From contig JACEVL010000764.1 in assembly GCA_020284085.1 (NCBI GenBank), positions 365,898 through 429,897 of the forward strand: DNA of 64,000 nt, written 5' to 3'. The notes under the pieces were generated by a model. The model saw only the letters and a program-made list of their open reading frames with translations, made no database searches and was not told where the DNA came from. This DNA comes from Aporrectodea caliginosa. Lineage: Eukaryota; Annelida; Clitellata; Crassiclitellata; Lumbricidae. The position numbers and the translations under genes are program-made. Each line of letters opens with the position of its first letter. The stretch's first letter is position 1. Shown in pieces: positions 6,380-64,000 of the stretch.

Positions 6380-6517
6380 TTTGTCCTATTGGCTTCTATG
6401 GAAGAGATTGCGTTAAGCGATGCCATTGTGCAGACGAAGGCCCGTGTCGATTCAATGGTTCTTGTCTGACTTCAACGCTCAGCTCCTGTGAACGAGGCTC
6501 TGCATGCAGTAGTGGAG
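6380..6517 (+). CDS. gene A exon: EGF-like domain
   Basis: Acceptor GTATTTCAG before 6380; donor GTAATC after 6517; phase 1-1, 138 nt. The peptide begins VCPIGFYGRDC and continues with a cysteine spacing (CVKRCHC, PCRFNGSC, SSCERGSAC) shared with the exons at 19270 and 41034. The Gly-Phe-Tyr-Gly core is the usual EGF signature of MEGF10/SREC-like proteins. Where the paralogues read GWTGSAC or GWTGFAC this copy reads ERGSAC, so the last loop is a little altered. Confidence 0.85.
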
Positions 6518-9500
6518 GTAATCCGCCTGAAATGTTTATCATTATTTATCCAAATAAATGTAAAACAAGTTGCAGTAGAACACGTTGTCTAGAACAAGGA
6601 AATTTATGGGAACACGAACAAAGACTATTTACAACAGTTAATTGGCCTGCGGTCTCATTACCTTCAGCCTCACTAGCAAATCCTGACGTCAAAATCCACG
6701 CTGATAGACAAGAAAAATCCGCCAAATCAGGCAAAATCAAACATGAATAGCTAGTCGAACGATCAGAATTAACATTCAAAAACGCCATTTGTTACCTTCA
6801 CCTACGTGTGTAGAGCAACGATTCTCTCTGAATCGAGAGATTGGAATGACTTTGCTGAACGATCTCCAGTCGTTCATTCGAGTGGTTTTGTGAGAAAGAA
6901 CCAATCATGCAAATCCTAGATGCGCATGAAAGGTTAGTCGATAGATGTATACTGTAGAGCAGTGGTCACCAACCTTTTTTCGGTGAGGAGCCGCATTGCC
7001 AGGTTTAGCAACTATTGGGAGCCGCCAAGGGTTTTAGGAGCACAACAAATAGGCCTAGGCCTACTAGTGGCTAGCACCATTCGCCGCTAGCGTTAATCAT
7101 AATATACACTGTGTCCACGATAAAGTAGAACACTAGACTTTGTAAAATATCTTGTTCAATTGTACCTATATAGGTACTAAATTCGGTGCACATAAACTTC
7201 CGTCTATTCTATCTATACCCTGCAAATTTTATTAAAATTGATGCAACGGTTACGAGGATATACCGTTATGAAATTGGGTGGTTCAGGAACCAAGTTACCA
7301 ACACGTAAAACGCATCGACAGATGCATGCGCGGCTGATCATCCTGACTCAGCACCAGTTCTTCGACAGCATTGATATTTGTTTGCGTTCGTAACGCCCGA
7401 TCTCGTGGTTTCCTTGCAACTGATCCGGTTGTGGCAATCTTTTTTAACAGCTTGCTGACACCAGCTAGGGACCAATTTTTCATTGGAAATTCTGTAATGA
7501 GTCTCCTTACGCCATACCCCTTCGTCTCTCAACTCCTTGATTAAAATCTTGTCCTCTGCACTGAAAACCATTTCTTTACAACCAATTATACTGTTACGTA
7601 AAACAGGTCTCGTAGTGTAACTGTTTCCGAAAATGACGCTTATAAACAACAGCCTATCTCTGCGGTAGCCAGAAAAATGACGTTATTCTATGCGTTTTAC
7701 GTGTTGGTAACTTGGTTCCTGAACCACCCAATTTCATAAGGGTATATCCTCGTAACCGTTGCATCAATGGTAATAAAATTTGCAGGCTATAGATCGAATA
7801 GACTGAAGTTTATGTGCACCAAATTTAGTACCTATAATAGTACAATTGACCAAGATATTTAACAAAGTCTAGTGTTCTACTTTATCGTGGACACAGTGTA
7901 TAATATAATTATATTATATAGAAGGAAATAAACAATTCTTCATAAATGCGATCACTGAGCTGTACAGATCAGTTACAAAATGAGTACCTGCAACTTCAAA
8001 TTCACTTGGTTTAGATGCCCTGTAACGTAACTTAAAAGGCATTGTCCAGCAAACATGTGCACTGTATAATAACTCAGGGAAGGTCTGCCTTTTCTCTCTA
8101 AAAATTCTTTAATGTGTGGCAACAGTGAAAACAAACTCCCAAACCTTTCCTTTGCTCAGTCATGTCACTTCACTATAAAGAATAAGGTCTCCATACTCTG
8201 CCTTCATTTCTGCAAGCAGAAGCTTAAACTGTCTGTGTTTTAGCGCTCTTGCCCGAATGAAGTTGTAATTTCCACCCACATAAACGACACCTGATGAAAA
8301 ATGCTATGAAATGAAACAAATATTTTCCAAAATCATTATAGAAACAAGTGGTTTCTTATCACTTATGACTCCTATCGAACTCGGAAAGACAGGACCGACA
8401 CACAAAACAAGGACGTCATAGACTTTTGAGCTCAAGCAACAATTTAATTTCGCAATTTAATTTCATCGCATAGAAAATGTCATTTTCTGGAAAGCTCTGG
8501 AGAGCCGCCACAGAACTTTTTGAGAGCCGCATGCGGCTCGCGAGCCGCAGGTTGGTGACCACTGCTGTAGAGTCTCTACAGTATACAATGTTATACATCT
8601 ATCGACTAACTTTGCATTTGTTACCTTCACCTGCGTTCGTGTTTACACGCCAATTCCTGTTGTTTTCGCTGTTTTATCAGTACATCGTCGCAATTTGGCG
8701 TTTTTGGATGTTAATTCTGATCGTTCGACTATTCATGTTTGATTTTTGCCTGATTTGGTGGATTGTTCTTGTCTATCAGCGTGGATTTTGACGTCGTTTT
8801 GGCTACAGTTTCGTCAAATTCGTTCATCTGCCTTCCAATTCTCTTCGACCTAAACGACAGCTGTCTTAGCAGCTCCTCTGTCCGCTCTCTCTGGACTCCC
8901 AGGCAACCGGACTATGATTTCTTGTTGACTGCCCTCTGAGACGAGCAGCGCTCGTGAATAAGCTGGCGCCCTGCTCTTAGCTTTCAAATTGCGCTTAGGA
9001 AATTTGGAGTTGGCGAATTAGATTACAGATTTTAAAATGTCAAAATTTTATGTGATGAGATTTAGAAAATCTTTATCTAGAACTATGCGGGTCATGAGTC
9101 GAATATAATTCGATGTATGCTTAAGACAGGAAATTGAAAGGATTATTCTTTAATTACGACAATTAGTAGTGATTATACCTAATTCATAGTTTTATTGTTG
9201 CCACAGATAACATTCAGAAACAGTACATAGGATGTTACGGAGATGGTTATTATAATTACCAGGCGATGGATGTGAAAAATCCAGGTGGAAGAACAGGTCA
9301 TCAGAGACGGCACCCCAACTCGGTTGAATTCTGCATAAATATTTGTTCTACCTACAATTACACATATGCAGGAATGCAGGTGAGACTAGAGAGTCAACAG
9401 TACAACCTGAGAACGAACATTTACAAACCTGTTTTATTAAATAGCCACACGAAACACATTAAAATAGAAAATCTGCTTTTGTCATTATTAAATAATACAC

Positions 9501-12500
9501 GTGAATCACCCAGTGTTCGATTGTTGTCGCACTTATAGTTCTAAGCAAACAGCTAAAATCACAACAAATTGCAGTACGTAGAGAGAGACAAAGCTGCCTG
9601 CAACGACCTAATAGCCAATTTCAATAAAATTACAGTAAATCGAAAGCGAAAGCCTAGACCCAATAGCCAAACGAAGACCTAAGATCCACAGACCAGATGT
9701 AGCCTATAGTATCTGCGCACCGTCCAATATGGCATAATGGATTCTTTGAACCTACAAGCCAAACACCAGAAATTTCAGAACATCGATAGGCAGTCAGAAG
9801 TATCAATGCTTGAGATAGTGTACACTTTAACGATTAAAGCACCGCCAACGCTTATCAGCTGCAAGCAGCCGTGCGGTCGCGCTTATGCAACCGTAAGTTT
9901 ATGAGCTGAGCAGTTTGCAAGGCGATATTGATCAAGCGCAATCATTTTTGTCAGAGGTATCACTGCCTGTCAGTGCCCATTCTGACATGCCTCTGCCAGG
10001 ATAAGTACGAATATCTGAGGTAATTACTGTGAACGATGATGGGCCACAATTCTTGTGCTTGAATTAAGGCGGGTGAGTTGACAGTATGCGTAAGTCTGTG
10101 AGAGTGTATTGCAAAACCCAGACAAGAAACGGTAGTAATCGATCGTGCCAACTAACGGTCGGAAGGTGCGCAAGTCGTCAGTTCACGGCGATGTTGTCCA
10201 AAATAGTAGTTTGAACACACACTTGGGAAGAGAACAGTTACTGCACATAGCATAATTATAGCACAGCGGTGGGCTATGGTGAAACAGATTACAGATCTGC
10301 TGCTTCGGGAATGATATAAGCCCAAACATATGTGGAAGGTCTACCCGCGCTTCCCCAAACACCGGCTGTACTGAAAATGATGATAGTTGTACTGTCTTTC
10401 AGTACTTGGTGGCAAGCGGTACTACGAACACAGTAGCTGGCTAAATCTGCTGGAGACTTTAGTTTGCAACTGAGCACGTGGGTTTGTCATATCAAGCAGA
10501 GACAATTAAGAGACACTTCGTTTGATGAATATTATTGCACGAAACTGTACATAGCGTATTTACAGAACAGTGAATTAAGCATCATATCGCAACAGAGTCT
10601 GTGACTTTGCCTTTCAGAATTCGCGATTCGCCTTCTAGATAAGTCAGGTCGTTCTTGGAGGCCCGCGGCTGCGTAGTAGGGTGGTGCTAAAAAAATTATT
10701 TTTAGTAAATTGATGGGACAGCCCCAGGTTATGTTCCTTTTGATAAAGTAAGTTAGTGTGCAAAATATGATAAAGATATTCCATCATTTAGGTGTGCCAC
10801 ATGAGATGACAAGTTTTCCAAATTTTAGACAAGGATCGTAAGCACAATTGTGATAAAATTAGAAACTTTTTTAGTATTTTGTGTAAGATAAAGTAAACCT
10901 TAAATTGTTTTCCTTAAAAGCAGAATAATTAAAAAGTACTGCTGAGCATTATTCAGCCTTATAAGTTTGATTAAATCATTAACACATTATAATATTCATT
11001 GGTCCATTTTGTGACCGTTGACCTTTTGGGGTCCGGAAACTTTTTTGATGCTCTTACACCACCTAAAGCAAGACCTGCTTAAATGTTGTTCTGTTACCAC
11101 GCATTACTATTATTAGCTGTCCTTCATTCGATCAAAAGCTGCTGCTAGCCTGCTGCTTGCACACTGATAATATTCTTTGGTACAGCTACAGGAGCTGACC
11201 AACAAAGTGGATTCCAGTAGAAAAAGACTAGGGCTCAGGATCAACGCCCAAAAGACCAAAACAATGACAGTGGGGAAAGGACAGGAGGCACTAGACATCA
11301 GATTGGGAGGAGAGGAGTTGGAGCAAGTAACCGAGTTTGCATATCTAGGAGGGCTTATTACAGAAGATGCCAGATGCACAAAAGACATCAAACGGAGAAG
11401 TACTCTAGCGTGTGCAATGTTCGGTAAACTAAATAAGATCTGGAAAGATAAAAGCATATCAACGAGAACAAAGTTGAAGTTATACGAAACCTTTGTCATA
11501 CCGGTACTACTATATGGCTCAGAATGCTGGTGCCTGAGGAGGGAGGATGAGAGGAGACTCTTGACGACGGAAATGAGCTGGCTGAGAAGAATAAAGGGCA
11601 GGAGCAAAAGAGATAGGATTAGAAATGAGGTGACTAGAAGAGAGCTGGGACAGACGGATACAATTGTCGATAGAATAAGGAAGAAAAGGCTAAAGTGGCT
11701 GGGACATGTGATGAGAATGGGCAATGACAGATTACCATTGTTGGCTTTACACGGATATGTGGAGGGAACTAGGAGTAGAGGAAGACAACAAAAGACATGG
11801 ATGGATAATATACGAGAGGATCTGGAGAGAATGAAGATGAACATTGCAGAAGCAAAGGAACAAATCAAGGACAGAGAATTCTGGAGACGACAAGTTGAGG
11901 ACTCATCGTTGGCCTTGGCCTGACGGAGGAGAAGCAAAGAAGAATATTCTTTGGGCGAGGTCTTTTAGCCTTTGGGGTTTCTGCCTCATCACCAGACTCA
12001 GAGTTTTCGACGCAGTCTATATGGGACATGGGTATATTTCACAACAGGAGGCAAATTAGATAAATTTCCGTCTTCTGCTTTGGACGGCTTACACAAAGAA
12101 TAAAATTATAATTTATAATTTTTAAATACATTGCAGGGCATGTATTAGTTATAAAAAATTATTTATATTATATTATTTAGATGATTAGAATGAGAAAAAA
12201 AAATTATAAAGTCCAATTTTAACCCGAAATTTCATTGACCTTTTTAATGGTGAGTCAATTCAACGTTATGTTAGGGTAACAGCTGAAACGCTTAACTGAT
12301 GTTTTATAATTTTTAGATCATTAACTTACATATATCCATTGCTCTATATGGTTTTTATTAACTAATTAACAAACTAAATAATTAAAAAATAAATAAAACC
12401 GTCTGTCTTCAAATATTGGTTACAACACCGTTACGAATGGGTTTCTGCCATCTGAGGAATAAATTGAAAACTCTCGGCTTTTTGAATTGGCATCTTCTAT

Positions 12501-15500: not shown

Positions 15501-18500
15501 ATGTACGCTGAAACTCTCTAGCTCTCCCAACCATAGGAGGATCTGTTACAGCATCTTTGGAGTGTTTGCGCGTCTATATGGCTCTCGCCTAGCGGACAGC
15601 GACAGGAGATCTTTAAGGAGTGCTATGTTATAAGGCATCTGATTCTCAGCGGTATGCGAGTCCTACTTCACAAGATACTAACCGATCTGGGAGCGGCCGC
15701 AGTGGCTGAGCGGACCGACTGAATGTAAACCATACTTCCGGAGCCAGACGCTCGACAACGATTGAAAGCATCTGGTCTGAAGTCCTATATATAGCATGAA
15801 GCTGAGCGCTTGGTATCTGACCGCTGCCTAAAACTCCTTGAACGAGTCTTGGACACCGACAACCTAGAGTTGTATCCGATTTCTTGGAAAACGGCCTTCG
15901 AGAGTCAGAAACAGATCACCATGGCCGAAGAATGGAACGACGATGAGACTGCGGCGATCATCGAGCAGGATGTTCCTCGAAAGTACACGGCCAAAGAAGG
16001 GGATGACCGAGCTTCTTAGTGAAAGAGACCCTATCGCGATCATTGGGTGCACCAGAATCGCGATCATTGGGTGCACCAGAGCAAGAACAACACGGTCCTC
16101 TTCCCATCACTGGCAAGTACCCAGGTACTGTCTTTCAGTACTTGGTGGCAAGCGGTACTATGAACACAGTAGCTGGCTAAATCTTTTGGAGACTTTATTT
16201 TGCAACTGAGCACGTGGGTTATCGTATCAAGCAGAGACATTTACGAGACACTTCGTTTGACGAATATTATTGCTGCCTATCGATGAACTGGATGAGAGGT
16301 CGGAATATTATGGTTATCTGTCCCAATTACGTGCTTACAAAGAATGTCATCACATCGAAACGGCCTTGGGTGGTGACCCTATGCACCCTATTCGGCCGCC
16401 ATCCCGACAGCCCCTACGAGATTTCATAGTTTTATGCAATGTGAATCTTCAGTTTATGGACATAACCGCACCAGGCGTTGCCATATGCAGCGTGCCACGT
16501 GCGTTCTCCTTGGCCGCCAAGAGCTCGGTGATCGCGTCGCCCAGGACATCCAGAACGGATTAACAGGCTCTCACTGCTACCGTTTGTTTTCCTTTTGCTG
16601 GTGGGTCCAAACATTTATTACTACTTATTGCGCATTGCGCTCATAAGATGCATCCTGGTGTGGGTCGTCGGTCTGTGAGTTGTGTTGCGAGCTGCTGGTG
16701 GGTCTAGGCCTCTCGCTCTCAATATACTGCAATTTATATAAATATTGTTGGTAAGTCGTTGCATGCGGCCTTTCGCTGTCGATGTATTGCAGTTTGTTGT
16801 CTGGTGGGTGCATGGACGGCGTAGGGCTCTATGTTGATAACACTTTAACCAAGAGTTAGAAACACAACCTAAATGCAGTACATTTAAAATTGTGGATAAG
16901 TTTCTATGCAAAGTGTAGCTCGCTAAACTATCGATATAAATTTGAAGAACTAATGTAGTCCCCGAACTATGGCGTCATTAAAAAAAATGCATAATGTAAG
17001 TTTATCAAATGGCACTCCAATACGTATGTGCCAGTTTATTCACATCCAAGAGATATGTCCGACGGATAGAGACCTGCCAATAAAAGATATGCACACTGAA
17101 AGAGGTAAGTCTAAAGTAGAAGTTGGAAGCAATGCAGAGACTACAGTACAATGTGATGATCTAACTTCACACTGCAAATTTTAATTTTGGAGTATTATTT
17201 TTTCGTTAAGTAGCTGTGTTCTGTTATAGTACGGATACGACTGTTCTTGTGGAGAAAAGTACAACAGATACGGAAATAAGACATTCCGTGGCGAACTGGT
17301 CAACTGCAATATTTCCTGTCCCGCAAATGAAAACCAGACATGTGGAGGCCACTTTGCTAACAGTGTTTATCATGGTGAGTGATGAGGATTATTATAGTAT
17401 TCTTATGTCACCTTATTCGCGTGGCAAGATATCGACGATTCAACCTTTGCATTATTATTATGGCTTCCTTTCTTCTGCTTTCAGGTCTTCCGCCACTCAG
17501 ATAATATTTTAACTCGCCATGCAGCTGCATTTGACTCTATTCTTTATGCGAGACAAGCACATTCCCAATAAAGACTAAGGCATTTTATTTGCGGTACTCC
17601 GAATAATTGTCTAGTAAAATTGTATTGTATTGCATTGTATTTGATCGTTTTTAAAGCGCTTCTCATAGCATAAACCTTTCAGAAGCGCTCCCAGTGCAAG
17701 GTACTCCGAGGAAAAAGGCAGGTTTTAAGGTGAGAGAAAGAGGTAGATATGCTACTAGAGAGGATTGTAGAGCGTAGAGAAGAAGGAAGTAGATTCCATA
17801 GAGAGGGACCTATGCACACAAAGGACCTGGATTGTGCCATTGTGGTCCTAACACGGGGAACAAAAAGGTCAAGCCGGTCAGAGGATCTGATAAATGTCGA
17901 CTGTACGCACACATAACTGCTCATCGCATCGCGTTCTGCAAAACTTCAGATATCCCGCAAACTAGTGACCTACGCTAAGATTTGTCGACTTCTCAAATTT
18001 AGTTTCCAAAACTTCTTTTGCCCCTTGTTCCATGTGGCGCACTCTCAACGAGACTTGGCACCGTAAAATGACAATATCTCATTAAGCTCCTAATAACAAT
18101 CGTACTTTTCCAAGAAATTTCTGAACTTTATTTTCCAAAATTGTTACTAATTAAATCAGTGTAACTCTCAACTAAAATAATTTCAATGCTGGACTGTTTT
18201 TCTAGTGGCGACAAAATTTAGTTCGCATCTCACTTTGTGTGACCGACCTATCATTCGGCTGGTTTTCAATTCCACTTATCTCTTCTATCTACGAGACGGT
18301 TTGATCAAATTCAAAGGGCGAGGCCGAGAAACATGAGGCGGGCTTTATCTGCTTCGTCTCGGTCTATTCCTTCAAAGCAGTGAACAATTTGGCTGATTGC
18401 ATTCACTTTTTTCAATTAAGCGCATCTCCGATCTTATTCTCTTATCTGTATAGCCGCCAGTAACTTCTAGTGTGGCATTTTAATGGAATAACATATTTAC

Positions 18501-21500
18501 TCACTAATTGTCTGCTTACACACTTCGGCAGTGTAACACCTCGTTGAGTTTGCAACGATGGCTTCAAAATATTACTTAACAAGTTAACATCTCTGCGGAT
18601 TGTTTGCATATTAACGCTGGAGGTCACTGTTATTGTTTACCGCTAATGATAAAATTAGCGCAGCGGCATGTGGTTCTACCGCTGTGCTAGGGCTTACATT
18701 GTTTCTGACTGGCGATGGCATGCGTTATTGGTCATCATATGCAAGTTAGGCATTACAGAGACAATTTAGAAAATAATATTTGAATTAAGACCGATTATTG
18801 CAGGTTTCTGTCAATAACACAATACAATCAACGCTTTCAAGCCTACATTTTGCGACACATTATTTTGCGTTTGAAACGTGAAGAAAGAATAAAAACATTG
18901 ACTTGACACGGCGGGTAAGTACGTTGACACAAATGACAGATTAAAGATGAATGACATCAACATCAGAGACTTAGCATCGGATTACAATGCTTCAGACCAA
19001 TCGCAGAAAATACTGAAAGGCTTAACATGACATTGATGCGAGCAAAACTCAGCAACAGCTTCACATAATCAATCACGAAGTTGATTATTCTGAAGATTAA
19101 GCAATGAACAAAAATAAGTCAGTTGATTTAAATGCAAGAAACTAAGAGAGATTGGATTCTAAACCGAGTTTTTTACTCAATAGGCAGCAAGTCCACTGTA
19201 GTCCAGTTATTGTATTTTAATGACTAAGTGATGAATGAAATATAAAAAAATTCTTAACCTGTATTTCAGTTTGTCCCATGGGCTTCTATGGACCAAATTG
19301 CGTTAAAAGGTGCAACTGTTCTTACGGAAATCCGTGTCGATTCAACGGTTCCTGTATCACATCGACGCCTCACTTCTGTAAACCAGGATGGACAGGGTTT
19401 GCATGCAATACAAGAGGTACTTTTGCTTGATTCTATATAGTTGTCATTGAGATAATTAAAATGTAAATGACGTTGAAGTTGTGTATGACAAGAAAACATA
19501 TAAGATCATGGGAAAAAGAAAAGCCTATCTGCGACATTTAATTATTGTCATCAGCCGCAGCAGCAAGTCCTTGTACAGATGTAGCCTACATGAACTGGTG
19601 AGGTTCTTTTAGAGTCTACATGTTACTGGAATGCGCCTTAGATTTGAAACTTCCTCTGAATCCCGCATGTTCTCAGTTATTCCACCAATACCGCCATTCA
19701 CCCACCGTCATCTGCCTCTGGCTCTCCTACTTATCACCCAAAAGACTTTCTATCCAAATTTCAGTCTTATCTCTTCAAGAATTCCTACCCTATTCCATCC
19801 GATCCCCCGCCTTCCAACCGTTCTAGTACTAAACGAAACCCACCATAGCATATTCTCTGGGTTATCCCGTAGTTTAGGTTGGTATATTATTTTTAGTGCC
19901 TTCAATGCCGTACTTGACGTTGGTAAGTAAGCAGTCTACCAATGTCTATGATAACTGTCATCAATCCAGCTTCCATTTAAGAAAAAAATATTTTCATCCA
20001 TCGAACTTCTGTTTAAACAAGAATTATTGTCATCGATCCAACTTCTATTTAACCAAGAACTTGTTCAACAATCCAACTTCTATTTAGGCAAGGATTATTT
20101 TCGTCAATCCCACTTCTGTGTAAGCAAAAAACCTTCATCGATCCAGCTTCTACTGAAGCAAATAATTATGTAGTTTTATCCAGCTTCTATTTAGAGACAC
20201 AATTATTTCCATCGACCCGAAACATGTCCTCCGACGGCTATGCTCGATTAGGCAGGAGAGTAGATACAACCTACGCTCTAGGCCCCATCCATTCGCCCTT
20301 CCAGCCAAAGACAATAAGAACTTTTGTCTCGTATGTTGGTATTCAAAACATCTATTAGTTATAACAGACAGCTGAAGTAACTAGGCAAAATCTGTTTCAT
20401 AACTGCTACATCCAGAACAATTATTGTCACTTGTTGCGTTCTGACAACAATCTTTGATTGAATAAACGAAAATACATACATACATACGCGACATCCACCT
20501 GATCAGGCAAAGAAGTAGTTTCATCATATGCAACTTCCATTTAGACCAAAATTATTTTCATCAATCAGCTTCCATTTTTAATTGACAATATAAAATAATT
20601 TACCAACCTAAACTATGTTTTCACCTATTCATTCTGCCTCCTCCCTTTGGTCTCTCTGCAACCGAGACTCGAACCTCGAGCGGGTCATCGATCTCTCGAT
20701 AAAACCTGTTGACGCGACTGCAACACTTCGTGGAATAATCTGGTACCATGCCTTAGCTTTTGAGCAACGCTTTAGAACTTTGGGGTTTATGGCTACTGGC
20801 AATTTTAAAATTTCCCAATTATAGGATATGTTTCCAAATGCTCAAAATTTCTTATAAAACAAGCAGATCCATTAGTTTAAATTAATCTGCTTTTCAATGA
20901 TTTAAAAAATAAATCTGTGGTTAGATTAGGAATTTACTCGTAACTTAAAACTCTGCCTTTAAAATGTGGCATCTTTCCTGGTCTATGATCAATGCTTAAG
21001 AGATAGCAATAAAATTGATGTCATAGTTTACTTTTAAACTTGAAACTCTTCACAAAAACTGTTCAGTGGACCATTTCTAAGCACTTCCCATTCATTTAAA
21101 CTCAGTGCCTAAGAATAAATTTATCATGGGGCTGTCCATTTCTCTGTCCGGTACATAAGGTGTTTCTTGAACAGTTTCAACGATGAAAACTAATCTTTCT
21201 TGTATTATGGAGTTGTCCTTGACGCGAGTTAAGTTGTGATGGCTAAGGTATGTTCTCTCATGATAGTTCGCCTGCCGTAAAATACAACTTTATATGATAA
21301 TTTTATCTTACATGTAGTTTTAACTAAGTCAATCGTAGACTTTTCCATGTGCAACCTTTTGATCGGTTTCATCAATTAAAAATTATTCAGATTGTGAAAA
21401 TTAAAACTAAAATCACTTTTGATACAATTTACACTTTGTTTGCATAGCCTTCCATCTTCAGTTTCAATTTTATTCAGAATACTGTTACGGACGGTTCGAA

Positions 21501-23420
21501 TTATTCTTGCGCCAGAACGACACCGTAGTCTGTACTGGCGAATGGTAGTGTTCTCTGGATAAGGCCTGGTTTATCAAATTCGGATCCAACGGAACAATCA
21601 CTTTGTGGCCCGGCCAAGGCACCAGGAGACTCTTCGCTGTGCTAGCCTGTCAGGTCGGGTCCAGGAGACATTTAACAACTCTGTGTCACCTGAAAGCGTT
21701 CGCTCGGGGCTTTCTCGCCACGCTAACGAAAACTGAATTGTAAGCCAAGACGACGGATATCGCACTGGAAAGGCCTCCTTTTTTTTGAAACCAAAGCACT
21801 GAGTTTAATACCGATTTATAATAAATTTTGTTATCTATATTAAAAATGAAGTAAAATAGAAATTTAGATTATGTGATGTGTGGAATTACATTAAATTTTG
21901 AAACATTCATTCTCGTCAAATATAATATTATGTTGTTAAAATAAAGCTTCTCGCGTTAAAATAAAATGTCTAAGTCTCAAGGTATGCCTTTTGTATACAG
22001 CAATAGAAATTTCTGCATTTCAAGGCCTGCTGTAAGTAAATAGTAGGCTACGCTCTGTATGTATTTTAGAACCAAGTAGAGGTAGGACAAAGTCTGATTT
22101 GCAACCACGTTGCGTAAAAATATCGGATCAGCAAGAAATGACATACATGTACGATGAGATTCCAGATGCTGTTGGCCAGAATAGCGTCTACGAACAGATC
22201 AACCTGGATAAACGTCAGATCGTCCAGAATCCAACTTCTGAATATGCAGCGCTTAAGCACGATGATAACTATTTGAATGTTGAGTCTTCTTCCTAAAAAA
22301 TACTGCAAACATTTGCATGCAATCTAGAATAAGTATATTATATTTAGAATAACAGTTTTTTCGCGTGATTACTTGCGAGGCAGAAGCATTTACATGTAGC
22401 GTTTGGTTTAGTTTAACTATATTTAAACAGATTATTTGAGCTTTAATTCTAGTGAATGTACAACGCATTTTAAGCAAAGAAAGTCATAATGATTTTGTCT
22501 ATCTTCTACTTCTAAACGGTTGCGGACGTTTGTCCAAGTTTGTCCAATATTTACGTAGAAGCGATATGATATACTTTACTGTTAAATGTGCTTAACCAAT
22601 GTTCATTGTATTTTATCTAGGCCCAGACAACCGATTACTCGTTTCGCCGCTCTTGAGAATATTAGCCGGAAAAACAGCATTATATGAACTTAGATCTGCA
22701 TCTATGATATTATGCGCATTTGTAAAAATCCAGCCCTATAATTATAGGCAGTACGTGATTTAACCGGATAAAATAAGTGAACATATTTTATGTATTGCTT
22801 TTAGACAGATAAGTGCCTTCAGATTTTCACAGTGAATTGATTCTCCGACTGTAGGTTGTGAGCTGCATCTCAATTTTTTTAGTCGAAATTAAATGCTCTT
22901 GGACAAGGACCCGAAAGCATCTCAAACCGTGGACTTGTTCTATGTTAATCGAAGAGTTTTCTGGCATTATATACAATATAAGATTAGGCAGGCAAATAGC
23001 AATTGCTTTTGTTTTACAATCATTAAATTTGTATGTTTTTCACAGTTAACTGTTTAATGTGAATGCATTCCATGTATTAGGCCTACTTCTAGCTTCCAAT
23101 CTATGCTCTCTTGGGCTAACATTATTCTATTGTCTGCATTACTGACACAATTTACGGACTTCAGAAGTAGCTATAGTTTATGTTTCTGAGTAAGATTAAG
23201 GACTGATGTATACCCTAAAGCTTTAGACATTGTCATGATTAATTAATTATTGCATTATAGATAATTTGCCATTAATTTTCAGAGGAATTCAAGTATTTGA
23301 ATGTGTTTTTAGTACCGTCGGGATCTCTAGTGAGACTTTCGAACTGGGTTTGCTGTTTCAGACTCTAGTTTTTGATGCATTGCGATATTAGCTGTTAAAA
23401 TATGGGATTCTGAATAAATC
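6380..23420 (+). CDS. gene A: WSC/EGF receptor with ITAM-like tail (3' part of gene, spliced)
   Basis: Spliced model using exons 6380-6517 (EGF), 9207-9379 and 17230-17374 (two halves of a WSC domain), 19270-19416 (EGF) and 22070-22296 (cytoplasmic tail with stop), with AATAAA at 23413-23418. All junctions are GT/AG and the phases (1-1, 1-0, 0-1, 1-1, 1-end) keep one open frame. WSC domains are putative carbohydrate-binding modules with eight conserved cysteines. The EGF units resemble those of MEGF/SREC-type scavenger receptors. The 5' part, with the signal peptide, lies left of the window. Compared with gene B, the second EGF, WSC3, WSC4, EGF, Ca-EGF and transmembrane exons were not found between 19416 and 22070. 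The copy may therefore be shortened, secreted or decaying, or its membrane exon may be too divergent for me to recognise. The name is by domain only. Confidence 0.75.
7107..7898. mobile_element. Tc1/mariner element, internally deleted, long TIRs
   Basis: The ends CACTGTGTCCACGATAAAG (7107) and CTTTATCGTGGACACAGTG (to 7898) are flanked by TA on both sides. The inverted similarity extends about 200 bp inward, for example the AACACGTAAAACGCAT block near 7300 and its complement near 7695. The middle encodes only the N-terminal helix-turn-helix part of a transposase on the minus strand. Confidence 0.92.
7295..7575 (-). pseudogene. mariner-type transposase N-terminus, frameshifted and truncated
   Basis: Minus-strand translation begins MVFSAEDKILIKELRDE and then continues after a frameshift as MKNWSLAGVSKLLKK, followed by ARKPRDRALRTQTN and VEELVLSQDDQP. 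This order (two HTH motifs, an R-rich linker, then VxELVLSQEDxP) matches the N-terminal DNA-binding part of a common invertebrate mariner-like transposase family. The DDE catalytic domain is missing. Confidence 0.85.
9207..9379 (+). CDS. gene A exon: WSC domain, first half
   Basis: Acceptor TTGCCACAG, donor GTGAGA, 173 nt, phase 1 to 0. The peptide contains QKQYIGCYGDG and EFCINIC, which supply the first three of the eight WSC cysteines. It is closely similar to gene B exon 35607-35782 (QKQYIGCYGDGFG, EFCIEVC, ending YTYAGMQ), and the upstream intron sequences are also alike. The second half is at 17230, after a 7.9-kb intron full of transposons. Confidence 0.9.
9380..10668. other. intron, no gene seen; contains a block duplicated at 16125-16278
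   Basis: The segment 10391-10548 (starting near TACTGTCTTTCAGTACTTGG) is about 90% identical to 16125-16278 in the same intron. Nothing else is recognised. Short ORFs lack homology I can see. Confidence 0.5.
11177..11923 (+). pseudogene. LINE reverse transcriptase C-terminal fragment
   Basis: An open frame of about 245 codons matches the region after the catalytic palm of RTE/BovB-type reverse transcriptases: a thumb-like segment with EFAYLGGLITEDARC, then IWKDKSISTRTK, VLLYGSECW and WLGHVMRM. The YADD box and the endonuclease are absent because of 5' truncation. The frame is uninterrupted to its stop, so the insertion is fairly young. Confidence 0.85.
11181..11942 (+). mobile_element. 5'-truncated RTE-like LINE with 12-bp target duplication
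   Basis: The fragment encodes the C-terminal part of a LINE ORF2: LQELTNKVDSSRKRLGL, INAQKTKTM, EFAYLGGLITED, LYGSECWCL, WLGHVMRM, GRQQKTWMDNIRE. It ends with a very short 3' tail (TGACGGAGGAGAAGCAAAGA). The flanks AATATTCTTTGG at 11169-11180 and 11943-11954 are identical, as expected for target-primed insertion. It is nested in the hAT element 10677-14665. Confidence 0.88.
13330..13600 (-). pseudogene. decayed coding remnant inside the hAT-like element
   Basis: The minus strand reads EWRNSQRQH, HKKSKSKDLL, TEHFSEMEEYQVQWHKWITS with stops between the pieces. The charged composition suggests an old protein-coding stretch, possibly of the host transposon, but I cannot assign it to a family. 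Confidence 0.3.
14674..16960. other. GC-richer unassigned region with coding-like fragments
   Basis: The base composition is clearly more GC-rich than the surroundings from about 14680 to 16860. Coding-like stretches include 15810-16019 (+), with RCLKLLERVLDTDNLELYPI and MAEEWNDDETAAIIEQD, and 16270-16563 (+), with LPIDELDERSEYYGYLSQLR. At 16625-16813 (-) there are two copies of LQYI(D/E)SERP. None is recognised. A box-A-like AGTGGCTGAGCGG occurs near 15702. Most likely this is an old retroelement or a transduced sequence in the WSC intron. Confidence 0.35.
16625..16813 (-). CDS. unidentified short ORF with repeated LQYI(D/E)SERP motif
   Basis: The minus-strand peptide of about 62 residues contains KLQYIDSERPHATTYQQYL and then KLQYIESERPRPTSSSQ, an internal repeat of roughly 23 residues, followed by a polar Ser/Asp/Gln tail. 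It resembles a low-complexity cytoplasmic segment. No start context or splice partners were established, so it may be a fragment of a transposed gene or chance. Confidence 0.25.
   Translation of the reverse strand: MHPPDNKLQYIDSERPHATTYQQYLYKLQYIESERPRPTSSSQHNSQTDDPHQDASYERNAQ
17230..17374 (+). CDS. gene A exon: WSC domain, second half
   Basis: Acceptor CTGTTATAG, donor GTGAGT, 145 nt, phase 0 to 1. The peptide starts YGYDCSCGEKYNRYGNK and ends in NCNISC and QTCGGHFANSVYH. It provides the remaining five WSC cysteines and the CGG motif typical of the family. Its length and acceptor are identical to gene B exon 39700-39844. Confidence 0.92.
17620..17935 (-). mobile_element. CR1/L2-like LINE 3' end
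   Basis: The minus strand encodes RLDLFVPRVRTTMAQSRSF, GPSLWNLLPSSLR and SFSHLKTCLFPRS, the conserved tail (W-N-x-L-P...F-K-x-x-L-K-T-x-L-F) of CR1/L2-type ORF2. It ends in a 3' UTR containing AAGCGCTTCT and an ATTGT-rich tail on the plus strand. Related pieces lie at 49021-49110, 49815-50060 and 53000-53340. Confidence 0.8.
17990..19269. repeat. segmental duplicate of 715-930 and 5560-6379
   Basis: The intron upstream of the EGF exon at 19270 matches the sequence upstream of the EGF exon at 6380. Shared text includes ACACTTCGG (18521 and 5600), GGCATGCGTT, GTTTCTGTCAATAACACAA, and CATCGGATTACAA (18976 and 6117). This documents an intragenic duplication of intron plus EGF exon in gene A. The first copy was afterwards split by the hAT-like element at 2705-4953. 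Confidence 0.85.
19270..19416 (+). CDS. gene A exon: EGF-like domain
   Basis: Acceptor GTATTTCAG, donor GTACTT, 147 nt, phase 1-1. The peptide starts VCPMGFYGPNCVKRCNC and ends FCKPGWTGFACNTR, with the complete EGF C-x-P-G-W-x-G-x-x-C close. It is paralogous to 6380-6517 and to 41034-41177. Its phase would also join directly in frame to the tail exon at 22070. Confidence 0.92.
19870..20615. mobile_element. MITE-like element with 25-bp TIRs and internal minisatellite
   Basis: TAGTTTAGGTTGGTATATTA at 19870 is inverted at 20591-20615 with one or two mismatches. The interior carries a tandem unit of about 37 bp based on CATCGATCCAACTTCTATTT. A related minisatellite is found at 36050-36300 inside a foldback element in gene B. 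No target duplication was clear. Confidence 0.6.
20616..22069. other. intron of gene A; GC-rich island, no transmembrane exon seen
   Basis: I looked for a phase 1-1 hydrophobic exon like 48750-48866 of gene B and found none. The segment 21484-21780 is markedly GC-rich and coding-like in composition but not recognised, and is probably a transposon remnant. The rest is AT-rich. Confidence 0.45.
22070..22296 (+). CDS. gene A exon: cytoplasmic tail with ITAM-like tyrosine motifs, stop codon
   Basis: Acceptor TATTTTAG; the phase-1 start needs one base from the preceding exon (giving Glu), and TAA is at 22294-22296. The tail of about 75 residues contains YDEI, YEQI, YAAL and YLNV. YDEI and YEQI are separated by nine residues, which fits the ITAM spacing YxxI/L-x6-12-YxxI/L. 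SVYEQI and SEYAAL also fit the ITIM form S-x-Y-x-x-I/L. YLNV fits a Grb2-type pYxN site, and YDEIP resembles a Src-family SH2 ligand. The gene B tail is homologous (KxSDQxE...YDEI...VGQN...YEQI...SEYA(A/D)L...VESS). Function by motif only. Confidence 0.88.
22297..23420 (+). other. gene A 3' UTR and polyadenylation signal
   Basis: Non-coding sequence after the stop contains blocks conserved with gene B, for example TCTCTAGTGAGAC at 23330 and about 51297, and TTCTGAATAAAT at both ends. AATAAA at 23413-23418 is the best candidate poly(A) signal. The equivalent in gene B is 51387-51392. Confidence 0.6.
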
Positions 23421-24101: not shown

Positions 24102-24780
24102 AACGAGTGTAAGACAGTGAAAGTCGTGTGTCTCCCAAACTACAATTCTTCAATGCCACCTGATGAATACGTGAACTGGTAATAAGAAATATATCCGAAG
24201 TTCCTTAGGCCACAAAATTATGAATATTATTATTTCTGCATTTTCAGCGCCACTTTCTGACGATTAAGCAACAATCGATGGCGCTGCGCAATTGTGAGCA
24301 AAGGATTTTCTCAAGGTAGCTACGCAGTAGAAGAGAAGGCTCGACCACGTACTCTCCATGTTACATGCCGAGCGCTGTAACGAATTGGCCACCGTCATCT
24401 AATCTTGTGACCTGAGGAAGTAATGCACTAGAAGTTAATGGCTACAATTGCGCAAGAACCCACTGTATGCAGAATTACGTTTAGCCTGATCAAACTAGGT
24501 GTGGCCACATGGATGGTATTATTGTTTAGGGAACTTTGTTGTTCAGTTTCAGTATCCTTGTTTTAAAAGTGCAACTATATGAACCATATGTAAATTAGTA
24601 TTTGGTATGAAATATTATGAAGCGTTAACTAATAAGGGCTGTGTATGCAGCTACACATGCAGAATGAAACATATCCGTAAACTCCAGCCCAGCTGAACAC
24701 TAAGCAACCCATCTGTTGCAGACATACTACACAACCTCTGATTGGTGTGTGCACTGCGAGGGGCGCTATATACATTGATA
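23990..24780. repeat. intergenic segmental duplication, partner of 55090-55900
   Basis: Long colinear similarity with 55090-55900. Both share AGCGCCACTTT, CGAGCGCTGT(A/G)ACGAATTGGC, CCTGA(G/A)GAAGTAAT and GTGTGGCCACAT. The two copies stand in the same place relative to the preceding receptor gene and the following first exon, so the whole gene-plus-spacer unit was duplicated. Confidence 0.88.
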
Positions 24781-25513: not shown

Positions 25514-51392
<25,879 letters not shown>

Positions 51393-51868
51393 TGATATTT
51401 CACACATTTGCATGTTTACTATAAGGTTGGGAAAGCTCTAGGTGACAGTCAACGCACTTTGTCATTGGTAATGTAATCTGGTTTGATCAGCCGAGTACCG
51501 GCGAAATGTTACAGTTATCTAGCACATGGATCGTCATTTCATTTTGAACTGTAAAAATGTTCTTCGTCCTTAATCCTCGTACAGTTTAAGTAAAATACGG
51601 AAAGTTAGACATTCCAAAACCAACCAAAGAAACATTTATTGTACAGGCTACAAACAATTATCGGGTTATTGAGCCTTTCTTGTTTTTAACAGCCATCGAG
51701 CTGTTGTGTGGTTGCACTATAGAATACTTACACGTCATTCTACTCCTTTTCTCATTCATCAACAACTCGAATGATATTTCCGTCCACAGCTTGATGCTGT
51801 CTACAACAGTGAGTGTATAGGGGAAAGTAAAATATACAAAACCGAGTTGGCTTATACGAAGATAAGCC

Positions 51869-55100: not shown

Positions 55101-55900
55101 TATTTTAGAATCTGAAAGATTTACAAAGTAAACTACGTAGCTTCTACTTTAGTCTGAAAGATTTACAAAGTAAACTACGTAGCTTCTACTTTAGTATGTA
55201 TGCGTATTACTGTGTATGTACCTCATTTATTGAACCTCAATAGGATAGGTGCTAAATTCGTTTGATGTTGTATTCAAATTACCCCTTTTCGATATAAGAC
55301 CACCTGGTGATTACCTGAAATGGCAACATGAGATATGTCAGAAGTTTGTTAGGTCATAAAGTTATCGTCATTGTTATTTCTGTGATTTTAAGCGCCACTT
55401 TTTGACGACTAAGCATTAATCGATAGTGCAATTGCGAGTAAAGGACATGCACGAGGTCTCTGCTCAGTAACCGTCACAGAGGATGCTCCACCTCGTACTC
55501 TCTACGTTACAGTTCGAGCGCTGTGACGAATTGGCTACCGTGCCCCGCCCATCACCTAATCCTGTGGCCTGAAGAAGTAATACACTAGAAGTCAACGTCT
55601 ATAATTGGTGCAAGAAATCACTGTATGCAAAATCACGTTTTGTCTGTTAAAAGTAGGTGTGGCCACATAGATGGTATCATTGTTTAGGAAACATTTGAAC
55701 ATAATTTTATTATTCTTGTTTTAAAAGTGCATATTATATGAACCGTATGTAAATTCATAATTTGGTATTAAAAATGATGGAGCGTTGATGAAGGCTGTGC
55801 ACGTGTACACTGTACAGGATGCTACATAAATTATCCGTAAGCCCTAGCCCTACTAAACACTTGATGAGCAGCCCATCTCCAACAGATATACCACACAGCT
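55090..55900. repeat. intergenic segmental duplication, partner of 23990-24780
   Basis: Colinear with the A-B spacer as described for 23990-24780. The start contains a tandem pair of about 53 bp (CTGAAAGATTTACAAAGTAA at 55102 and 55155) absent from the other copy. Confidence 0.88.
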
Positions 55901-56385: not shown

Positions 56386-56458
56386 ATGTGCAAAATGAGT
56401 AAATACGCAGGAATGATAAGGTTTTGTTGGATACTTCTGGCAACTACCAGGATCAGTG
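56386..56458 (+). CDS. gene C exon 1: start codon and signal peptide (gene continues right)
   Basis: ATG at 56386; the peptide MCKMSKYAGMIRFCWILLAT then TRIS ends in phase 1 at donor GTAAGT. Length (73 nt), phase, donor and flanking sequence match gene B exon 1. The following intron shares blocks with gene B intron 1 up to about 63705. By that spacing the first WSC exon should lie about 1.4 kb further on, beyond the window. Confidence 0.87.
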
Positions 56459-58560: not shown

Positions 58561-59109
58561 AATTTCTATTTTCTATATATTGCAAAGTTTAAAACGTGAG
58601 AACGTAATAATGTACTCGCTGTATTGGTTTAACACAGGCATTTGTAGAAAGCAATTCAACATGAGTATAGAAATGAGAGTAGTTTCAAAAACAATAATGA
58701 CAGCCACATCTAAGTTTCGGTGAACCAATTGTTTGCATGTTTGGTGAATATGTTTACTATGACAGGATAACTGAAATAAACTTAGATGAGATCAATTTCG
58801 TGCGCCCAAACACACTCGCTGAAACGAGGAAACTGGGATGAAGTCATAACTTTAGTTTGGAATAAAAATATTTTAAAACAAATGTTATATAAGCCAATAT
58901 AATTCAATCGAATCTAAACCTTCTATAGCGCCAATGTTTTATTTCATCTCGATTATTGCTACAAAGTAAAATGGTTGTGCATGCTAAAATTAATTCCATG
59001 ATGAGTAGGGTTGAACGCAAGACAGGTATCCCAGAAGACACGACAACTAGCCTATGCATTAAATATACATATACAACAAGCCATATTAATATTAATATTA
59101 TTAATATTT

Positions 59110-59113
59110 TTTA

Positions 59114-59147
<34 letters not shown>

Positions 59148-59166
59148 TATTATTATTATTACTATT
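59110..59166. repeat. (ATT)n microsatellite
   Basis: TATTATTATT run with minor interruptions. Confidence 0.95.
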
Positions 59167-59269
59167 AAAGGCTGTCTTATCGAACGCCTTGTAATGCTAA
59201 TAAGGTCAGTGGTCGGTTTGCTCCAGAATAAAATAACAATACTAGACTTAAAGGAAAAGATATAGGCCT

Positions 59270-59465
59270 AAGCCTATGCCTGCATCCTGGACAATGTAGG
59301 CCTAAGCCTATGCCTGCATCCTGGACAATGTAGGCCTTAGCCTATGCCTGCATCCTGGACAATGTAGGCCTTAGCCTATGCCTGCATCCTGGACAATGTA
59401 GGCCTAAGCCTATGCCTGCATCCTGGACAATGTAGGCCTTAGCCTATGCCTGCATCCTGGACAAT
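59270..59465. repeat. 34-bp minisatellite, about six copies
   Basis: The unit of 34 bp starts at 59270, 59304, 59338, 59372, 59406 and 59440 (the last partial). It consists of AAGCCTATGCCTGCATCCTG followed by GACAATGTAGGCCT, with an A/T variant at the second base. Confidence 0.97.
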
Positions 59466-59739
59466 TGCGATTTAGCCACATTAATGACCGCACTTGTCAA
59501 ACATCGCTGAGGCCATTTGGTAGGCCTACACATATTCGTATTTACTAAACAGCAATTACGTAATAACTGGAGAACATTTAATGCTCTTCTATATCAAGAG
59601 ACCTACTAGACCCAAAATTTCACCACTAACAGGCTGGCCCGCTGGCTTGTACTGTTAGGCTCATTAACTCGGGTGGGGTGTTTCTGATGTCACTGGACCA
59701 CTCGTGCTGACTCAAGTACATTCAGTATATGACTTCAGT

Positions 59740-60100
59740 GTAGCTAGTAGTAGGTAGGTGATTGATTAGTTAGTTAGGTAGATGTTAAGTAGGTAGTTGT
59801 TAGTTAGTTGAGCAGCAAGCCCCAAGGACGAAGCAGAATGGTTTAGAACAGCAGCATTAAATTAATAATTAGAGTACCAGTGCCAAACCCTGTGATAATC
59901 CAAATGAAAGCAAAGGCCAAGCCGATCTGCTAAAACCAATATCGAGCACCGGAGCTACCTCAGGAAGGCCCCATGTCAACAGTCAAAATCAGCAGTCAAG
60001 CGAGTCAAATATGTAAGTAGGTAGTTGTTAGGAAGTTATTAGGCAGTTAGTTGCTGTAGGTAGGTGGTTAGGTAGAGTGAAGGGGAGGGAAGGGAAAGGA
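59740..60100. repeat. GTTAG/GTAGG-rich simple repeats
   Basis: Degenerate GTAGGTAG and GTTAGTTAG runs at 59748-59812 and 60014-60075, with unassigned sequence between them. Confidence 0.6.
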
Positions 60101-60829
60101 AGGGTCGAACAGTGCAGTAACTGGAAAGCGATTTTTGTGCCCACCATGACTGAGATTACGTAAAGAGAAGAACCAAATTTCCAGCAGCCTCTGAAGCATC
60201 GATAAGCTCTTTCATCAGAATACGCACGTTTGTTGTATGCATTACCTGAACAGGCAAAGCGCTAACACCAAATGATTCGTTACGAAAAAGATGAAGACGT
60301 TCACTCAGTAGACCACAAGAGTGCAATGTTAACTATAACAAACTTTCTGCACCACCTTAATATTGAGGATACGTTTCAGTTACACGTCGAAAATTTTATC
60401 TTTGCATAATAGACATTTTTCTCTTTTTTTTACTAAATTGCTATACTGGTGTAACTTTTTGCAAGTTGTTTCATTTGTATAATTATATAGGCGTAGCTGT
60501 CAGGATCTATATTATAAATGATTGGTTGACTGTAAAACAAATATTATTTGTGCTTGTATACCAGTAAGTTCACCGCTAGAGCATAAACAGATGCAGCATC
60601 TGACAGCGGCGCTGGTCGAGTGTGTCAGCAACGTCACAGCGCCCCACTCCGATTCACGCATATTCATGACCCGCCTATTGGGTCGACCTGTCAGTGGAAA
60701 GATCTTGTACTAGACCACCCCCAAGAGCATACTATAATTTATTTCACTGTTAATAGAAATGTAAAATAATGACAATAATTAATATTATTATTATTTAAAT
60801 TTGTAACGTGTGCAAGGTCACACCGAAAT

Positions 60830-61060
60830 GTGAATCTGAAAACCTCTGTCTGGACACCGAGATCGCCTCACTAAGACATATGGCTGTGGATATATAAATG
60901 GCTACTTGGAACGTGACGTCACGTCACATGATCCGTGAATATAATAATCGCACAGTGTCAAACTTAATTCGAAAACCCTAATTCAGTCACCGAAGGCACC
61001 TTTCTAAGACTTAGGGCTGTGGAGATATAAATGGCCACATCAAAGTCACGGTCAATCACG
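60830..61060. repeat. direct repeat of about 130 bp
   Basis: The phrase GGCTGTGGATATATAAATGG at 60880 recurs as GGCTGTGGAGATATAAATGG at 61014, each followed by a GTCACG(T) stretch and preceded by CTAAGAC. This may be inside the second Helitron. Confidence 0.5.
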
Positions 61061-61993
61061 TATTCCGCAAGACATGATTGCCAAAGGGTGTCAAAAGTAT
61101 GTTTTTTAGAAATCGACCTGCCAAAGAATTTAAATTGACACCAATTTTATCCACCTAAGAACAATACTTTTTAAAGAGAAATCATTGTCCAATGTGACGT
61201 CAACTGTAACATCAACGTTTAACTTCATGCCAAACGGATTCACCCAAGAGTAGCTTTATAAAACCAAGACCGTTTTGCAGGAACCATAAATTATAAAGGA
61301 AAATTCATAAAAGGAATTTTGAAAATCTTTTTCAGTTCAAAAGTTGTGCGTAAAACGCGGTTCTGGAGTAAAAGTTCCGCCAGGTTGCAGCAAAAGGGTA
61401 AGGGCCCGTAGTTTCTAAACCTGGTACAAATGAACCGCAATAACAAATTTAAAGAGTATTAGCGTTCGGCATTTGCTGTCGTACTTGGGTATTTTGCGAT
61501 CATATTCACTTATTCGAAATCTATAGCGCCTTTCCTAAAGCTAGACTTTCCTAAAGCCAGATAACTTTTTACGAGCGCTTCGTAACGTCAGAGGAGTTGT
61601 CTATAGCGATACCATGAAAGAACAAGATCCGGTTGTTGAGCGACTAGAGAACGGGTTTGAGGAGCTACTACTGTGGGTTGTGTTTAGATTTAGAAGGCGG
61701 CGATCGCATGGATCAGGCTAGGATTTCTTGAAAGGCGGGCATTTGTTTTGAATGGAAAAATCAGAGCTGTGGTAGACAGGGACTTGAATCAGATGATGGT
61801 AAGTGAACACCATGAGTAATGAAGATACGTTGTATTTGTGGAATGAATTCAGGAGTAGAGACGCTGTGCATTGAGGAATAGGCCTACCGTTCGGTTAGAG
61901 TCTGATTATTGAGTAATTAATCATTGCATTTTAGACAGCTTCCCACTTGCTTTCAAACTTGACTTAGAGGCGTATGAATTTGCTTTGCTAAAG

Positions 61994-62480
61994 TAACTAA
62001 AGTAAGTATATCCTTTATTGAAAACCAACTGCTAAACGCATTTTGGTGTACATAGTTCATCAAATAGATAAAAAAAATTAAGTATAAAGCATCCGCGTGA
62101 CTAATGTTTTACGAGATAGAGAGTTTGCCTAAGTATATTGTGGGTTCTGGGGCGAGAATGAACATTTCTCACGGAAGGCAAAGCTGATGTAATATATGCG
62201 CAGGGTTGCTGATGATGTTTGAAAAGAGGTTGAAGTCTGCTTTCTGGCAAAGTTGCTCGAAACTTTGGTAGGCTTTTGGTAGGTATCTAGACCGGACCAG
62301 TCGCCGTATAGTAGCCTGAAGACGTGTGCTTCCCTCTCCCCCACGAAGCCCCACCACGTCGGGGACGCATAGAGCATCCGCGACACTGTGGTTGCATTGG
62401 TAACTTCACTCAGAGATTGACCCATTAGCCCGTGTCCTGTTAGAACGAGGAGGGCATACATCGAACGTAGTAACGTCAGG
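61994..62480 (-). mobile_element. CR1-like LINE 3' part
   Basis: Minus-strand coding ATTVSRMLYASPTWWGF is followed, after a frameshift, by YLPKAYQSFEQLCQKADFNL and PAHILHQLCLP. It then runs into the conserved 3' end (AAGTAAGTATATCCTTTATT on the plus strand at 61999). Confidence 0.85.
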
Positions 62481-62499
62481 CACCTTCATGAGACATTCA

Positions 62500-64000
62500 A
62501 ACAATGTGGTACAAGCTCAGTATTGAGAGGAGATTGTGCTACAATGGCGTAATAGGACAATTATAATTGCGTATAATTATTGTCATGATAATGTCGTGGT
62601 GATTGCTTTTGCAGCTGAGTGATTTGGGAGTAGTGTAATTAGCATCTTGTTGATTAGTAACACTTTGAATGATGGTTTGCGAAAGTTTCAGCCGGTGTGG
62701 TGATTTGAGGATGAAAGTGATATTTTTGTGCTTCGATATTAAAGCGACAGCTCGGGAAAGTTCATGTTGGATGTCTTGAAGTGGATTGAATTTTATGGAC
62801 AAGAGGATTATAATGACAGAGCCTTGAAAAATTGGAGCAATTGGAGATAACAAGAACATGTTTGAAAATAAAACATGGATCATTTGCTGCGAAAGTCACG
62901 AATATGAACGCAGCTGCCATGATAAAAGTTGAAAATATAACTTGAGAACACCATAATTATGTGGATAGATGTATAACAGATTTAAATGGTGAAAAGTGTG
63001 AATGAAGAAAACGTGGCGAAAATGTGAGTGAAGCATTTAGTTAATTGGTGGAAAGATGGGTCAAGGAGTTTTTATTCGGTTCCGGTAGATCAATGATTAT
63101 GAACTCATTATTGAAACAAACTAGGTTAGGGCACTTTTTTTGATTTTTTAATAATATGGAGTAGGCTAACCGAATGGTGGATTAGCCAAAAATAGAGTTA
63201 GGAAAGAAGGATATGCTGGGCTGAGTGTCATTCGCATGACGGTGGTAATCTATTGAAAATGGTTCTTTGAGATGGCTCAGTGAGATAGTGCACAAAATGA
63301 AGTAAAGTGGCAACAGACTGAACTACGAGAGACACACACGTGATGGTGGGAGGGCAGCAAACAATGACTCGCAGCTTTCACATAAAAGAAGACAATGCTG
63401 CAGCGAAAATTACCGAACCAGGATAATATGCGGGGAAAGTAGGTCACGATGAATTGTGTCAAGTACAGCAAATATGTCGAGAAGATAGAGGCTGATGACT
63501 AATACTACGAGAATAATAAATTGCACATCGAGGAATATTAAAAAGTAAACTACTCAACCAGCTAATGTTACATACTTCTCTGCATTTTATTTATTGCATG
63601 TCTTCACTGTATCCCATCCATCCCATGCGCAGTGCCACGGGGCCCCACATGCATGCTTTTCATGCGACTCCCAAGCAGTTAATCGGCCCCTTGGTTCTAT
63701 CAAATGAGTGAAAAAAGGTTTAAAATGTTTAAGTTAAAAAATGGTACAGTGCTACAGTATGTTGGTTGCGTTAATCCATCTGCGATTAATGCAAACAATA
63801 TACAACTTGATCGCAGACGGCTGTTGTTGTCACACAATCTGAAAACTTGATCGATTTAATTAGATTTGCCGAAAAAACGATCCAATGCTAGTTGAAACGT
63901 CGAATAGTTAAAACTATCACTTGTATGTTGGCGTCGGATATCTGATGACAGTAAATTAGTGTCTGTCTGCATTGACTTCGTAGAATCGGACAATAAAATA
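62500..64000. other. gene C intron 1, with LINE RT remnant
   Basis: On the minus strand near 63420-63480 the frames FAVLDTIHRDLL and ILSWFGN recall the L2/CR1 RT region (AFDTIDHDLL...WF). The block 63420-63705 is homologous to 27000-27330 in gene B intron 1. No exon is seen before the window ends. Confidence 0.5.

Follow-up and report, generated by a model that had tools for sequence, protein, structure and literature searches.

Receptors that carry parts of the layout described here have been reported from several organisms. The single-pass amphioxus receptor BbLcLRR carries a WSC domain on its extracellular side and tyrosine motifs in its cytoplasmic part, namely immunoreceptor tyrosine-based inhibitory motif (ITIM) tyrosines phosphorylated by Lck (PMC8211107), and Draper-I has one transmembrane (TM) segment and, in its tail, an immunoreceptor tyrosine-based activation motif (ITAM) that signals via Src42A and Shark (PMC4503800). 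WSC domains occur in the animal type I TM receptors Kremen 1 and 2 (PMC3927609), in sea urchin SpREJ6, 7, and 10 and human PKD1 (PMC1934368), and in a trypsin-WSC protein of Nematostella (PMC6767649); in fungi, Wsc1-type wall sensors span the membrane and bear a WSC ectodomain, Wsc1 clusters, and the WSC lectin SiWsc3 binds glucan (PMC9024836). These statements draw on parts of the cited articles. We analyzed a stretch of 64,000 nucleotides (hereafter, the window) of the annelid Aporrectodea caliginosa (assembly GCA_020284085.1, contig JACEVL010000764.1, positions 365,898 to 429,897). This animal-type DNA, with a G+C content of 32-45% per 2 kb, large introns, and transposon remains, contained three related genes, designated A, B, and C, of a kind with WSC, epidermal growth factor (EGF), and tyrosine-tail modules, all on the + strand. 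Gene B was complete, gene A was visible from its EGF exon at 6380 onward (the 3' half only), and of gene C the window showed exon 1, the 5' flank, and a stretch of intron 1 that matched weakly. We consider it reasonably probable that A-C are tandemly arranged members of one family of animal receptors, type I and single-pass, in which a lectin-like WSC/EGF ectodomain is coupled to SH2-type tyrosine signaling.

Gene B (25514-50398) was modeled as 14 exons joined across 13 GT-AG introns with consistent phases, giving 1944 coding bases including the stop codon and a protein of 647 amino acids. Its frame contained one stop, the last codon, whereas the two alternative frames contained 28 and 50. The predicted order was signal peptide, WSC1, EGF1, WSC2, EGF2, EGF3, WSC3, EGF4, EGF5 (EGF_CA), TM segment, and tyrosine tail. 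A phase-0 intron split each of the three WSC domains, and the remaining 10 introns were in phase 1. Since the modules are symmetric phase-1 exons or exon pairs, whole modules could be gained, skipped, or lost with the frame kept. In gene A, too, a phase-0 intron interrupted the one WSC domain, and the WSC region of frog Kremen 2 is divided in this way in the part of its description cited here (PMC3927609); the common split is consistent with an ancient origin of the WSC exon pair in animals.

The original prediction had proposed a Pfam search of the 647-residue translation for WSC, EGF, and EGF_CA. The WSC family (PF01822) was found in three stretches (E 4.7e-34, 116.9 bits vs. a cut-off of 27.8), and gene A also exceeded this cut-off, with 53.3 bits. 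For the EGF families the outcome was divided: EGF5 matched EGF_CA (PF07645, E 2.6e-10), and the EGF1-EGF4 exons matched no Pfam EGF family at cut-off and were called EGF from their cysteine pattern. WSC1, WSC2, and the A copy each had eight cysteines and WSC3 had nine; the EGF modules had eight in EGF1 and EGF2 and six in EGF3-5, and EGF3 and EGF4 were 42% identical over 33 columns. The EGF repeats had been described as MEGF/SREC-like, but this came down to a weak resemblance. Because EGF2 was more similar to Notch EGFs (the nearest, E 0.0021) than to SREC-1 (E 0.3) among solved structures, the label gained little support. A fourth WSC pair lay between WSC3 and EGF4. Its N-terminal half was frame-broken with stops, and an open message must therefore skip both halves, which the phases permit; the C-terminal half, being in phase 0, could not be joined in frame after WSC3. 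A functional fourth WSC in gene B was ruled out by the broken frame. Separately, the acceptor of WSC1 and its first nine codons (ERHEMYVGC) recurred at 28068-28114 as a copy of 98% identity over 48 columns; the copy lies 688 bases ahead of the true exon and is followed by a stop.

Tandem duplication of these genes was supported by matches both between A and B and between B and C. Besides the exons listed in Table 1, A and B shared a 3' block of 68.8% identity with AATAAA in register, whereas B and C shared a 5' flank (73.8% identity, E 1.5e-102) and first exons with 13 of 24 residues identical (E 3.2e-5). No part common to A and C was found within the window. The claim of three copies in one orientation with common parts thus held for A with B and for B with C, but not for all three at once. 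The start codons of B and C, at 25514 and 56386, were 30,872 bases apart, in agreement with the predicted 30.9 kb. As far as alignment of the copies can show it, the duplicated unit is the gene together with its spacer, repeated head to tail. Duplication may also have occurred within a gene: the EGF exons of A at 6380 and 19270 matched over 722 columns that included the upstream intron (71.7%), so one of them looks like a within-gene duplicate, and the first lacked three residues near its end relative to the second. In gene C, no convincing WSC or EGF exon was detected past exon 1 up to 64000 (best E 0.39). Pieces of intron 1 of B and C matched weakly (26929-27305 with 63330-63702), and extrapolation of these matches would place exon 2 of C beyond the window end. 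A tandem repeat with a 34-base period lay at 59226-59497, in the presumed intron 1 of C.

The tail exons of A and B were 56% identical over 48 columns (E 8.7e-10), and both contained the ITAM pattern YxxL/I-x6-12-YxxL/I, as YDEI-x9-YEQI in A and YDEI-x11-YEQI in B. The tail exon of B encoded approximately 55 residues with no kinase domain in the Pfam scan, and an NP.Y motif was present in neither tail. In a pairwise comparison of 204 shared A/B codons, the ratio of nonsynonymous to synonymous substitution rates (dN/dS) was 0.37 (dS 0.65, dN 0.24; 0.24-0.55 in 1000 bootstraps); by piece it was 0.50 and 0.40 for the WSC halves, 0.28 for EGF, and 0.31 for the tail (52 codons). These estimates show a signature of purifying selection on the coding exons common to A and B. 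In the mechanism that we propose, the ligand of the WSC modules would be a carbohydrate or a glycoprotein, or the modules would cluster the receptor. Upon clustering, Src-family kinases would phosphorylate the tail pair YDEI...YEQI, and the phosphorylated pair would recruit a tandem-SH2 (Syk/Shark-type) kinase, by analogy with Draper-I; further YxxL/V sites may recruit other SH2 proteins. The original prediction had proposed a putative role in innate or self-recognition; of this, an immune-type signal through the ITAM-like tail is plausible on the basis of these motifs.

Gene B was compared with the receptors named above. BbLcLRR, with its WSC ectodomain and ITIM tail, would be the nearest published relative in layout, as judged by the part of its description cited above. 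It resembles B in being single-pass, with an extracellular WSC and cytoplasmic tyrosine motifs, whereas it differs in having a leucine-rich repeat (LRR) ectodomain, no EGF mentioned in that part, and an inhibitory ITIM tail where that of B is ITAM-like; no LRR was found in B by the Pfam scan. The Draper/CED-1/MEGF10 family resembles B in the single TM segment and the tail ITAM, as in Draper-I. Its members carry EGF-type repeats and an N-terminal EMI domain, and we know of no WSC in them. B had no EMI (only WSC, EGF_CA, and a sub-threshold cEGF in the Pfam scan), no NPxY, and an EGF2 that matched SREC-1 poorly; membership in the Draper/MEGF family was ruled out by the lack of EMI and NPxY. Kremen 1 and 2 are, like B, type I TM receptors of animals that carry a WSC domain, but their kringle and CUB partners were absent from B in the Pfam scan, and to our knowledge Kremen has no EGF modules; B was not a Kremen, since it had no kringle or CUB. 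PKD1 and the SpREJ proteins are likewise animal receptors with a WSC domain, and differ in their PKD repeats, which were not matched in B by the Pfam scan. PKD1/REJ proteins have a REJ domain and many TM segments; B was rejected as one of them, with neither REJ nor PKD repeats matched and one TM exon in the model. A receptor tyrosine kinase or an LRR receptor was rejected because the Pfam scan showed no kinase and no LRR. Fungal Wsc1-type sensors, which B resembles as a membrane-spanning protein with a WSC ectodomain, have a single WSC, a Ser/Thr-rich stalk, no EGF known to us, and a tail unrelated to that of B.

When the whole of B was searched against proteins, six matches resulted, each with WSC in a precomputed Pfam list; four of them had named sources, which were two fungi, a brown alga, and the insect Homalodisca, and the last (25% over 38% of B) was the sole named animal. 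This search apparently reaches few invertebrate receptors, and absence from it says little. A search with B residues 500-647 gave two EGF-rich proteins (tilapia and shark). Of the 22 solved sequences with matches at E 0.01 or better, only those of Kremen 1 carried a WSC domain (best E 1.2e-7, B residues 192-272). A pattern search of viral contigs gave no match, and one of genome contigs gave three matches, none confirmed. The WSC-EGF-TM-tyrosine layout was not found in the literature on WSC receptors, as covered in part, with most subscription journals outside its scope. The combination of parts in B was unusual, each part being known on its own, and we therefore regard its novelty as provisional.

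Several points weigh against a family of signaling receptors. The exon joins of gene B are predictions from the genomic letters, and the donor after WSC3 (GTGGAC) was weak. The ITAM pattern is loose: it appeared in 314 of 20000 shuffled A tails and 296 of 20000 shuffled B tails (about 1.5%), and because the A and B tails are of common descent, the two matches are not independent and count about once. The pairwise A/B dN/dS does not distinguish which branch was constrained, and the B/C first exon was hardly constrained (0.68 over 24 codons). WSC domains also mediate protein-protein contacts, as in Kremen. Finally, no TM exon was found for gene A in 19416-22070, where no phase 1-1 candidate with a length of 60-260 bases reached a hydropathy of 1.2; a control scan on B (hydropathy 1.6) gave five candidates with the modeled exon first. 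A similarity search for the gene A TM segment found none, and 19400-22070 contained only weak hydrophobic stretches (best 1.84 over 17 residues), none of which forms a phase 1-1 exon. Either the anchor of A was lost, or its TM exon is unlike that of B, or the assembly is faulty. The lack of a TM exon found for A is hard to reconcile with its tail, which still looks constrained relative to that of B (pairwise dN/dS 0.31, 52 codons). The term receptor, as originally applied, thus fitted gene B, with its signal peptide, TM segment, and tail, but not gene A as far as it is visible. Similarly, the family had been called expanding, and duplication was evident, but so was loss: WSC4 is broken in B, and no convincing A counterpart of EGF3, WSC3, WSC4, EGF4, EGF5, or TM of B was found within 19416-22070.

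Other explanations of the locus were weighed. In the first, which we consider unlikely, the products are endocytic or scavenger receptors that do not signal in the ITAM manner; their tail tyrosines would be YxxPhi sorting signals through which glycans bound by the receptor are taken up via clathrin. All four tyrosines of the B tail (YDEI, YEQV, YEQI, and YADL) fit YxxPhi, a rule that we state from general knowledge, and the tail is short with no catalytic domain. However, despite a two-residue indel, both genes keep a spacing between YDEI and YEQI that an ITAM allows (9 and 11 residues), and in the A tail there is an additional YLNV, whose YxN form is characteristic of Grb2 SH2 sites. In the second, the cluster is decaying, with A and perhaps C being pseudogenes and only B, or none, in use. 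The lack of a found TM exon in A and of counterparts for six B modules in 19416-22070, the broken WSC4, and the transposon remains in introns would be expected in that case, but the five visible exons of A were all open and matched in phase, and the A/B dN/dS of 0.37 argues for constraint; we regard decay as rather improbable. Least probable, and quite doubtful, is a Kremen-like developmental co-receptor whose WSC/EGF modules bind a secreted protein ligand and tune signaling or adhesion, not immunity; it draws on the solved Kremen 1 match, whereas B lacks kringle and CUB and a tandem, module-losing family would be less usual for a developmental receptor.

The preferred reading, a tandem family of WSC/EGF receptors with SH2-type tyrosine signaling, can be carried further, though only tentatively: the genes might belong to an immune-type receptor family of invertebrates that has not been described before, with WSC lectin-like modules connected directly to an ITAM tail. 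Such a family would have diversified as genes were duplicated in tandem and as phase-1 cassettes were gained, lost, or skipped; one member, A, would have dropped its membrane anchor and may be secreted.

The introns contained remains of mobile elements (Table 1). Among the matches listed for the reverse transcriptase at 33171-33923 (120 of 8000 scored), the named sources included cattle, lizards, octopus, shrimp, and rotifer; we take this element to be of the BovB/RTE type, and the PF13843 transposase pieces are presumably of the piggyBac type. In an intron of A, an inverted pair of 225 bases (93% identical, 7094-7318 and 7687-7911) perhaps represents DNA transposon ends, and a 150-base direct repeat (93% identical, 10389-10538 and 16125-16273) flanked much of the WSC intron of A. 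Rfam and tRNA scans of the window found nothing.

Table 1. Features of the three-gene locus, in positions of the window
Feature	Gene	Positions	Strand	Remarks
Exon 1, start codon and signal peptide (24 codons)	B	25514-25586	+	Donor GTAAGT; C match 56386-56457, E 3.2e-5
WSC1 N-terminal half	B	28775-28941	+	Phase 1 in, phase 0 out
WSC1 C-terminal half	B	31857-31992	+	Exon model, Pfam
EGF1	B	34750-34884	+	8 cysteines, symmetric phase 1
WSC2 N-terminal half	B	35607-35782	+	63% identical to gene A copy
WSC2 C-terminal half	B	39700-39844	+	67% identical to gene A copy
EGF2	B	41034-41177	+	8 cysteines
EGF3	B	42482-42610	+	6 cysteines
WSC3 N-terminal half	B	44769-44908	+	Exon model, Pfam
WSC3 C-terminal half	B	45101-45245	+	Donor GTGGAC, weak
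WSC4 N-terminal half, broken	B	45877-46068	+	Both ends recognizable, in different frames, stops between
WSC4 C-terminal half	B	46333-46465	+	Open in itself, phase 0; hidden Markov model built from the window, E 7.4e-11
EGF4	B	46739-46882	+	6 cysteines
EGF5, calcium-binding EGF	B	47842-47967	+	Pfam PF07645, E 2.6e-10
Transmembrane exon	B	48750-48866	+	First of 5 hydrophobic phase 1-1 candidates in 47967-50232
Cytoplasmic tail and stop	B	50232-50398	+	YDEI, YEQV, YEQI, YADL
EGF exon copy 1	A	6380-6517	+	Matches copy at 19270
WSC N-terminal half	A	9207-9379	+	Matches 35607-35782 of B, 63% protein identity
WSC C-terminal half	A	17230-17374	+	Matches 39700-39844 of B, 67% protein identity
EGF exon copy 2	A	19270-19416	+	Matches 41034-41177 of B, 71% protein identity
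Cytoplasmic-type tail and stop	A	22070-22296	+	YDEI, YEQI, YAAL, YLNV; matches 50232-50398 of B
Exon 1 (24 codons)	C	56386-56458	+	Matches B exon 1
Conserved 3' block	A	23147-23419	+	Ends in AATAAA at 23413
Conserved 3' block	B	51128-51393	+	Ends in AATAAA at 51387
Conserved 5' flank	B	24156-24733	+	Matches 55300-55897
Conserved 5' flank	C	55300-55897	+	Matches 24156-24733
Reverse transcriptase pieces		32519-33923	-	B intron between WSC1 and EGF1; PF00078 E 2.3e-29 on 33171-33923
Transposase pieces (PF13843)		29549-30149	-	Intron inside WSC1 of B
Probable C-terminal part of another long interspersed nuclear element (LINE) reverse transcriptase		11171-11923	+	WSC intron of A; PF20049 and PF00078, both below cut-off

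If the coupling of WSC/EGF ectodomains to tyrosine signaling in these genes is true, the locus may be a case outside vertebrates in which an ectodomain of the carbohydrate-binding type was joined independently to an ITAM-like tail, within a row of genes that is duplicating. It would then be relevant to the way in which recognition receptors are assembled in invertebrates and to the ease with which ITAM-type signaling was fitted to different sensors, and the course of gain and loss could be read from the modular phase-1 exons.

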